A DNA stretch of 64,000 bases from Sulfurimonas sp. GTDB taxonomy: Bacteria; Campylobacterota; Campylobacteria; Campylobacterales; Sulfurimonadaceae. The DNA lies in assembly GCF_041583195.1 (NCBI RefSeq), contig NZ_JBFHGL010000007.1:62001-126000 (forward strand), written 5' to 3'. The stretch's first letter is position 1, and every line of letters begins with the position of its first letter. The notes beneath the pieces are model-generated. The model had not been told where the DNA came from and searched no databases. It saw only the letters and a list, made by a program, of their open reading frames with translations. Both the position numbers and the translations under genes were made by a program. This document shows, piece by piece, positions 20,201 to 21,618 of the stretch.

Positions 20201-20206
20201 TATAAT
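20201..20206 (+). promoter_or_regulatory. -10 box of the rpsF operon
   Basis: TATAAT at 20201-20206 has a T- and A-rich upstream region and no clear -35 hexamer. Transcription would start near 20213, exactly where the 5' arm of the leader structure begins. Confidence 0.65.
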
Positions 20207-20212
20207 TGCGAG

Positions 20213-20313
20213 TTCCTTTCTCTTTGTATCATAAAAATTTGTGATATATTTTATAACCGAAAGGGAAACTAAAAAGCCTTATAAAGGCAGATTCCAAGAG
20301 GAGACTATAGTCT
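20213..20313 (+). promoter_or_regulatory. Structured rpsF leader, candidate S6:S18 autoregulatory RNA
   Basis: TTCCTTTC (20213-20220) pairs with GAAAGGGAA (20259-20267) with one bulged G. Inside it TGTATCA (20225-20231) pairs with TGATATA (20242-20248). The internal loop has CC at 20257-20258 next to the first stem G, giving an exposed CCG. A stem-loop with an unpaired CCG near the closing stem is the hallmark of the described rpsF leader bound by the S6:S18 complex. A second hairpin GCCTT/AAGGC lies at 20276-20288, and AGACTATAGTCT (20302-20313) is a palindrome between the ribosome binding site and ATG. Pairing is visible; the regulatory class is inference. Confidence 0.55.
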
Positions 20314-20712
20314 ATGAGAAATTACGAAAACTTAGTAATCGTAAAACCAACATTAACAGCAGAAGAGATTCAAGAAAGCCTAAAAGCTATCCAAGAAGTA
20401 ATCACTTCTAACGGTGGCGAAATAGCTACAACTGATGATATGGGAATGAGAAAATTAGCATACCCAATTGAAAAACAAGAACGTGGATTTTTCCAAGTTA
20501 TTTATTATTCAGCAGAGCCTTCAGCAATCTCTGAAATCGAGAGAAGATTCCGTTTAAATGAAGAACTACTTCGTTTTGTTACTATCAAATATGATACTAA
20601 CCGTGAAGTTACTGCATGGAATGAAATGGTAAAAAAAGCTCAAGGTAAAGCTTCTGCACCAAAAGTAGAAGAAGCACCAAAAGCTGAAGAAACTGAAGCA
20701 GCAGCAGAGTAA
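20314..20712 (+). CDS. rpsF: Ribosomal protein bS6
   Basis: bS6 binds 16S rRNA together with bS18 on the small-subunit platform. The 132-residue protein has the family core MRNYENLVIVKPTL, GMRKLAYPIEKQERGFFQVIYY and RRFRLNEELLRFVTIKYD, then an alanine- and glutamate-rich tail from about residue 108 that is longer than in E. coli. AAGAGGAG precedes ATG. It heads the rpsF-ssb-rpsR operon. Confidence 0.98.
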   Translation: MRNYENLVIVKPTLTAEEIQESLKAIQEVITSNGGEIATTDDMGMRKLAYPIEKQERGFFQVIYYSAEPSAISEIERRFRLNEELLRFVTIKYDTNREVTAWNEMVKKAQGKASAPKVEEAPKAEETEAAAE

Positions 20713-20754
20713 TAAGTAGCTTTATTTATAAAGCATTAATTAAAAAGGAAACTC

Positions 20755-21330
20755 ATGTTTAACAAAGTTATTTTAGTCGGAAACTTAACACGCGATATTG
20801 AGCTTAGATACTCACAAGGCGGTATGGGTATTGCAAACACTGCAATAGCTACTAGCCGTAAGTATACAAGCAACGGTGAAAAAAAAGAGGAAGTATGTTT
20901 TGTAGACATCACTTTTTTTGCACGTTCAGCTGAAATAGCTAATCAATATCTTCGTAAAGGGAGTAAAATCCTAGTTGAAGGTAGACTTAACTTTGACCAA
21001 TGGGTAGATCAAAACGGACAAAAAAGAAGCAAGCACTCTGTTGTAGTTGAAACTATGCAGATGTTAGATAGCAAAGGTGATAATCCAAGTGCTAATGCAT
21101 ATCCTCAAGATAATGCACCTAGCCAAGCTTATCAAGCACCTCAGCAGCAACAAGCTCAAAGCTATCAAGCACCTCAGCAACAACAGCAAAGTTACGGTCA
21201 GCCACAGCAACAACAAAGCTATGGTCAACCTGCTCAGCAACAAAACTATGGACAGCAACAGCACCAACAAATACCAAATGCTAACCAAGTTCCTGAGATC
21301 GACATCGACGAAGATGAGATTCCGTTTTAG
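20755..21330 (+). CDS. ssb: Single-stranded DNA-binding protein
   Basis: SSB coats single-stranded DNA during replication, repair and recombination. The 191-residue protein has an OB fold (about 1-110: MFNKVILVGNLTRDIELRY, FARSAEIANQYLRKGSKILVEGRL), then a linker of glutamine-rich repeats (about 120-178, units like SYQAPQQQQ and SYGQPQQQ) and the acidic partner-binding tip ending DEDEIPF. The linker DNA is repetitive and may vary in length between strains. It lies between the two ribosomal genes whose products bind as a pair. Confidence 0.97.
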   Translation: MFNKVILVGNLTRDIELRYSQGGMGIANTAIATSRKYTSNGEKKEEVCFVDITFFARSAEIANQYLRKGSKILVEGRLNFDQWVDQNGQKRSKHSVVVETMQMLDSKGDNPSANAYPQDNAPSQAYQAPQQQQAQSYQAPQQQQQSYGQPQQQQSYGQPAQQQNYGQQQHQQIPNANQVPEIDIDEDEIPF

Positions 21331-21354
21331 AAAAATATAAATTAAGGATAAATC

Positions 21355-21618
21355 ATGGCAGAAAGAAGAAAGTACAAAAAAAGATATTGTAAATACTGTG
21401 AAGCAAAAGTTGACTTCATCGATTATAAAGATGTAGCAGGTCTACGTTTTTCACTATCTGAGAGATATAAAATCATGCCTCGTCGTTTAACAGGTAACTG
21501 TAAACGTCACCAAGACATGGTATCTACAGTAATCAAAAGAGCTCGTGCTGCAGCATTAGTTCCATATACTGTAACTCGTAAAGCAGTTGTAACTGCACCT
21601 TTCGAAAACCTAAAATAG
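21355..21618 (+). CDS. rpsR: Ribosomal protein bS18
   Basis: bS18 binds bS6 and 16S rRNA. The 87-residue protein starts [26 protein letters not shown] and keeps the CxxC pair near the N-terminus (C12, C15) seen in zinc-type bS18, then [31 protein letters not shown] precedes ATG. It closes the rpsF-ssb-rpsR operon. Confidence 0.98.

Follow-up and report, generated by a model that had tools for sequence, protein, structure and literature searches.

The rpsF leader of the window (the whole 64,000-nucleotide stretch of DNA that was analysed) is quite probably an S6:S18 autoregulatory leader that carries an extra CC unit and, with it, two ways to pair; the binding and the repression are predicted from the E. 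coli system. There, S6:S18 represses rpsF translation via the leader, with the putative Shine-Dalgarno in stem H1, and changing two conserved cytosines abolishes the regulation, as described in Babina 2015 (PMC4647458); a 2024 review (PMC10931766) places the CCG in a bulge that separates the stem from the hairpin. By extension, free S6:S18 in excess would bind the CC bases bulged from the leader, and the bound complex would hold the rpsF Shine-Dalgarno in stem H1, lowering the translation of rpsF-ssb-rpsR. Two pairings are envisaged for the strands listed in Table 1. In the nested one, homologous to that of E. coli, strand a would pair with the Shine-Dalgarno and strand b with b'; in the other, strand a would pair with b', and the Shine-Dalgarno would be freed or would pair with b as a pseudoknot. 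Of the readings considered for these sequences, an rpsF leader of the S6:S18 type has the best support; binding, repression and any switching in the window's family (f1) are what we infer. The widespread S6:S18 leader is already known, and the doubled-site form appears to be new, as no description of it was found in the literature searched on rpsF leaders, including those of Campylobacter and Helicobacter; the founding papers may already list members of the phylum.

The leader of about 100 nt precedes an operon of the order rpsF-ssb-rpsR (20314-21618), found unchanged in all 20 genomes examined, and thus lies in the 5' UTR of rpsF in a predicted single operon with rpsR. The first-pass annotation, which had the operon encode exactly S6 and S18, missed the ssb gene between the two. 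Its placement of a predicted transcript start at the stem agrees with the start implied by the TATAAT, given that the stem runs from 20213. A TANNNT begins 11-17 nt upstream of the GTTCC position in 89 of the 90 family sequences, and TATAAT itself is found at most 20 nt away in 65 of the 90; a generic promoter scan of the window gave other hexamers, the TATAAT at 20201-20206 being absent from its output. The neighbours between 16465 and 25057 include tatC, a queA-like gene and, on the - strand, a dprA-like gene, a divergent polysaccharide deacetylase and an HD-domain protein, along with an OmpA-like protein that falls under Pfam's cut-off.

Table 1. Elements of the rpsF leader and genes of the operon, in window coordinates.
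Feature	Position	Strand	Remarks
TATAAT, predicted -10 element	20201..20206	+	from sequence; implies a start at ~20211-20214
Strand a, UUCCUU, 5' strand of stem H1	20213..20218	+	GTTCCTT in 87/90 family sequences
N7, variable base between strands a and b	20219	+	T here; G/A in other genera
Strand b, CUCUUUG, homologous to the H2 5' strand	20220..20226	+	CTCTTTG in 88/90 family sequences
Inner hairpin P3	20225..20248	+	compensatory changes in 4/8 pairs among 28 close relatives
CC1 with G, upstream CCG half-site	20257..20259	+	CC in 90/90 aligned family sequences, largely by construction (the search pattern starts with CC; 4 sequences were hand-placed)
Strand b', AAAGGGAA	20260..20267	+	partner of a (stem of the first-pass annotation) or of b (E. 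coli-homologous fold)
P4, extra small hairpin between the half-sites	20276..20288	+	window's genus and some close genera
CC2, second half-site	20294..20295	+	directly 5' of the Shine-Dalgarno; corresponds to the E. coli CCG position
Shine-Dalgarno AAGAGGAG, strand a'	20296..20303	+	complementary to both a and b
rpsF (ribosomal protein S6)	20314..20712	+	TIGR00166, 96.9 bits
ssb	20755..21330	+	NF006297, 255 bits
rpsR (ribosomal protein S18)	21355..21618	+	TIGR00165, 100 bits

The stem proposed in the first-pass annotation, TTCCTTTC (20213-20220) with GAAAGGGAA (20259-20267), and its inner hairpin (20225-20248) are present as claimed, and compensatory change shows the hairpin to be real. The CCG said to be exposed there lies where it was placed (20257-20259), with its G paired to C20220 in that stem, so that CC alone is exposed. 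The annotation overlooked another CC half-site, located at the Shine-Dalgarno (20294-20303): CCG at 20257-20259 and CCA at 20294-20296 each precede an AAGG-type strand. The palindrome AGACTATAGTCT (20302-20313), noted before the ATG at 20314, does exist, and its conservation does not, the only perfect copy among 90 family sequences being that of the window; it was accordingly discarded as an operator or conserved hairpin. Transcription attenuation was also rejected, no terminator-like site having been found on the + strand of the leader. The linker hairpin P4 (genera g1, to which the window belongs, g3 and g16) beats its own shuffles at 5% in 8 of 32 distinct linkers. Read on the - strand, P4 resembles a terminator and has a T tail (1 found versus 0.0 expected); it also underlies a weak SpF51_sRNA match (26.8 bits against a cut-off of 50), and CAAAAGCC, at its start, recurs in many g1 and g16 relatives.

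The doubling of the motif can be gleaned from the upstream regions of rpsF, available for the 93 family genomes (of 101) that gave an rpsF match. Three were set aside, namely L085 (locus cut at a contig end), L037 (lacking the first motif) and L094 (of genus g17), and in nearly all of the remaining 90, GTTCCTT-N-CTCTTTG is followed by a variable hairpin, by CC-NN-AAGGG and, past a linker, by CC-NN and the Shine-Dalgarno. The pyrimidine strands UUCCUU and CUCUUU thus face the purine strands AAGGG and AAGGAG (the Shine-Dalgarno), each of the latter normally preceded by CC; owing to the extra CC-NN-AAGGG unit, there are two possible pairings among these four strands. CC2 is CC in the aligned family sequences, the exceptions being L080 and L082 (TC). 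A motif scan of public genomes gave at least 120 stretches; 76 of the 80 listed, mostly from Sulfurimonas, Sulfuricurvum or relatives, precede an S6-like start, the CC2 pattern is present in 74 of the 76 listed rpsF leaders (some of which are from the same genomes), and the four listed matches lacking such a start include two from Rhodanobacter and one archaeal record. The E. coli leader has the identical GUUCCUU at strand a.

Outside f1 and f11, the leaders of the phylum usually run from CCUUG through a hairpin and a linker to CC-NN-AAGGAG and the start. E. coli has this form too, its match to Rfam RF02893 reading GUUCCUU-GCCU..AGGC-linker-CCGU-AAGGAG in the same order. This form was found among 70 loci from nine other families, of which 66 were hand-picked; the f4 leaders have UCUUG and an altered Shine-Dalgarno. 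The search pattern fits 55 of the 65 distinct leaders (L108, L110, L181, L182, L187 and L204-L208 were dropped), and an H2 of at least five pairs, beginning at either of two positions past CCUU, is found in 49 of the 55 and beats its own shuffles at 5% in 37. In 28 single-CC leaders, the canonical H1/H2 arrangement is 98.5% paired, a value flattered by the choice of these 28 from the 55 with the six weakest H2 omitted, and its doubly changed cells number 22, where shuffles give 5.8; slid versions of the two helices on the same leaders are 28-67% paired. The compensatory change in H2 spans seven other families, and the counterpart of strand b in these is the 5' strand of H2, e.g. GCUCUUUU/AAAAGGGC. 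Two MAFFT alignments, A2 and A3, were out of register in H2 and were excluded from the counts. The other families of the phylum have a strongly covarying leader with the E. coli layout. Four leaders fetched from f7 (L192-L195) have CU for CC before the Shine-Dalgarno, and the 16S site of two other f7 genomes is ACCG.

R1, a covariance model built from the 28 single-CC leaders, carries this layout into the window's family. Its top hit in 3,070 bases of the E. coli locus is the E. coli leader (16.9 bits, E 0.0015, with E-values being rough), and it recovers L175, L178 and L180, the three of the six omitted leaders that were given to it. At E<=0.01, R1 finds 52 of the 93 family leaders (27/47 plus 25/46) and 4 of 4 from f11. 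In nine of the ten matches printed as alignments, strand a and the Shine-Dalgarno form the two ends and b lies on b'; L090, one of the 52, is a 35-nt match in the wrong register. The window's genus, where the linker is lengthened by the extra hairpin P4, yields 1 of 25 leaders at this threshold. The window's own leader is missed, the only match there being a 27-nt one at chance level (20277-20303, E 5.9) that ranks under many other places. Stacked stems, with H2 directly on H1 at the 5' side, are seen in the 28 other-family relatives and in the R1-aligned family members; in the window, this arrangement competes with other folds.

The S6:S18 leader has been called very widespread (Eckert 2020, PMC7247131), yet not one of the 101 family genomes, as searched with Infernal's stricter filters, gives an RF02893 match over the cut-off. 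The check with the Rfam model suggested in the first-pass annotation came out negative: RF02893 has no match in the window at its cut-off, nor any with E<=10 on 211 nt. Subthreshold matches in the family genomes total 18; 16 are in genomes with a known rpsF place, none of them at that place, and the other two are in genomes where no rpsF was found (G067 and G090). RF02893, known as RpsF_leader, describes the S6:S18 leader (Matelska 2013 and Fu 2014, as cited in Babina 2015, PMC4647458) and is a narrow model: it scores 110.1 bits on E. coli, and among 14 control genomes it gives a signal in three and is over the cut-off in one, evidently E. coli. B. subtilis, whose leader is described as an S6:S18 binder in the introduction to Babina 2015 (PMC4647458), is hence not over the cut-off. 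With one of 14 controls over the cut-off, a negative of this model is weak evidence. The first-pass annotation was prepared to abandon its reading if there were neither a leader-model match nor covariation in relatives; the former is absent and the latter is present, so one half of that pair holds. The covarying set from other families would yield an improved covariance model.

The a-b' stem of the first-pass annotation is one of two competing pairings, an additional one that the second unit allows, and the stem homologous to that of E. coli is, by comparison, UUCCUU (a) with the Shine-Dalgarno, with b and b' nested. The assignment to the S6:S18 type agrees with the covarying leaders of the phylum and the R1 matches in much of the family, binding being predicted. 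For the nested pairing, covariation signals weaker than that of the a-b' stem are present at two columns (29/40 against 22.4 and 25/40 against 16.7 expected, in related rows), and strand a is paired with the Shine-Dalgarno in 268 of 280 helix cells. The b-b' helix is weak in g7 and g10 (-3.8 and -4.5 kcal/mol), where N7 is mismatched.

A single predicted S6:S18 site, formed by the local stem 20213-20220/20259-20266 and the CCG at 20257-20259, with the Shine-Dalgarno outside and repression through steric hindrance or an altered downstream fold, we consider unlikely. The a-b' fold is more stable than the nested one in 72 of 75 sequences, and the 56-nt element alone takes the shape described in the first-pass annotation at -14.2 kcal/mol (z -3.26, with 1 of 200 shuffles as good). 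This stem also gains support at one position, N7: of 40 distinct rows, 34 pair it with 20260, where 21.3 would be expected and 0 of 5000 shuffles do as well (uncorrected for relatedness), the strongest signal among the 23 columns tested. On a tree of 20 genomes, in which two of the 17 inner branches are starred, N7 has changed at least six times, with one independent pair on supported branches, so that the tree gives this covariation test no power. Against the single site, most of CUCUUUG, kept in 88 of 90 sequences, would stay single-stranded on the 5' side, where the structure of E. coli and of the phylum has a continuous strand; in the free RNAalifold consensus of 28 close relatives, the partner of strand a is the Shine-Dalgarno; and the canonical model places the family leaders in the nested register. 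In the window, 118 nt including the Shine-Dalgarno and the first codons take a different best fold (z -2.37, 6 of 200 shuffles), and the a-b' stem forms with a predicted probability of 0.10, the mean across 77 distinct family sequences being 0.42. Strand a pairs with the Shine-Dalgarno at a probability of 0.01 in the window alone, and pairing of strands a and b with the first codons (20217-20222 with 20316-20321, GAGAAA) makes up 0.85 of the protein-free predicted ensemble there, averaging at most 0.21 in every genus.

Rated equally low is an H-type pseudoknot, in which a would pair with b' and b with the Shine-Dalgarno, and S6:S18 on CC1 would stabilise the structure and block initiation. Such a fold would account for the near-invariance of strand b, which is paired with the Shine-Dalgarno in 263 of 280 cells, and the summed duplex energy of its two helices is at least as good as that of the nested fold in 15 of 16 genera, where several margins are a few tenths of a kcal and pseudoknot energies are not included. 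It is weakened by the lack of visible covariation between b and the Shine-Dalgarno, which hardly vary, and by the constraint that 16S rRNA places on the Shine-Dalgarno in any case. The E. coli rpsO leader, bound by S15, is a pseudoknot that blocks initiation; its likeness would extend to this mechanism only, as both the protein and the RNA differ.

Two readings dispense with S6:S18. It is very improbable that the leader is no RNA regulator at all and is merely a conserved early transcribed region with a strong ribosome-binding site, its structure coming from composition; strands a and b do lie right at the predicted transcript start, and pyrimidine and purine strands pair in many registers from composition alone, so that cross-pairing is predicted, but compensatory change in the inner hairpin P3, that in H2 of seven other families and a layout shared with E. 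coli all speak against it. Least credible is CUCUUUG as a boxA-like NusB/S10 site in a Nus-factor target, despite its resemblance to the gammaproteobacterial search string GYTCTTTAANA and the boxA-like sites upstream of translation genes given in Baniulyte 2017, as CUCUUU in other families can be seen to form the 5' strand of H2, opposite partners with compensatory changes, and this reading was rejected because all six printed rRNA leaders of the family bear a different element, GATCATTGAAAAC. The latter, boxA-like and seen in the 16S leaders L123, L125, L126, L131, L132 and L134, is presumably the boxA of the family rRNA leaders.

Compared with RF02893, the window's leader, read as an S6:S18 leader, has the same position before rpsF in an operon with rpsR, the same GUUCCUU ... 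CC-NN-AAGG order and a hairpin on H1 with CC bulged on the 3' side, and the H1/H2 of other families show compensatory changes. It differs in that the family has two CC units and two interchangeable strand pairs, that P4 separates the upstream unit from the Shine-Dalgarno in the window's genus, and that RF02893 gives no match. A different S6:S18 leader candidate proposed for Chlorobi (Eckert 2020, PMC7247131) is, as presented there, likewise a lineage-specific leader before rpsF with S6:S18 as the likely ligand; that candidate is said not to resemble the rRNA site, whereas the window's leader retains the CCG and the widespread layout. A comparison of the bases at the site with those of 16S rRNA, made to look for mimicry, gave a mixed picture. 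In g1, the 16S site is mostly AAUACCGAAAGCG and the leader CCGAAAGGG (the 16S of the window's genome is cut at a contig end); other genomes do not track it: two g1 genomes have CCUAAAG in 16S and CCGAAAG in the leader, g14 has AUCAAAAG and CCAUAAG, and g7 and g10 have CCGAAAG and CCAUAAG.

The four f11 leaders also carry two CC units, and L094, from g17, the most divergent genus of the window's family, has just one CC, its R1 score being 46.7 bits. In a tree of S6, SSB and S18 from 20 genomes, f11 splits off first and g17 next, ahead of the remaining f1 genomes, from which it follows that the doubling either preceded the split of f11 and f1 and was lost in g17, or occurred more than once. The f11 leaders L204-L207 (g44) have, besides the two CC units, a tandem GCUCUUUGCUCUUU, which makes strands a and b near-identical there.

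What the doubling may have brought can be stated tentatively, at somewhat less than even confidence: in Sulfurimonas, Sulfuricurvum and relatives, the duplicated CC-NN-AAGG may have made a bistable leader out of a simple repressor site, in which S6:S18 would free or bury the rpsF Shine-Dalgarno, the burying fold being either the nested one with two stacked S6:S18 sites or the pseudoknot. If true, such a leader would provide two-site or cooperative feedback on ribosomal protein synthesis. With one CC in g17 and most of the other families sampled, and two in f11 and the rest of the window's family, the duplicated half-site offers a natural series in which to study the acquisition of a second site, or of a switch, by an autoregulatory leader.
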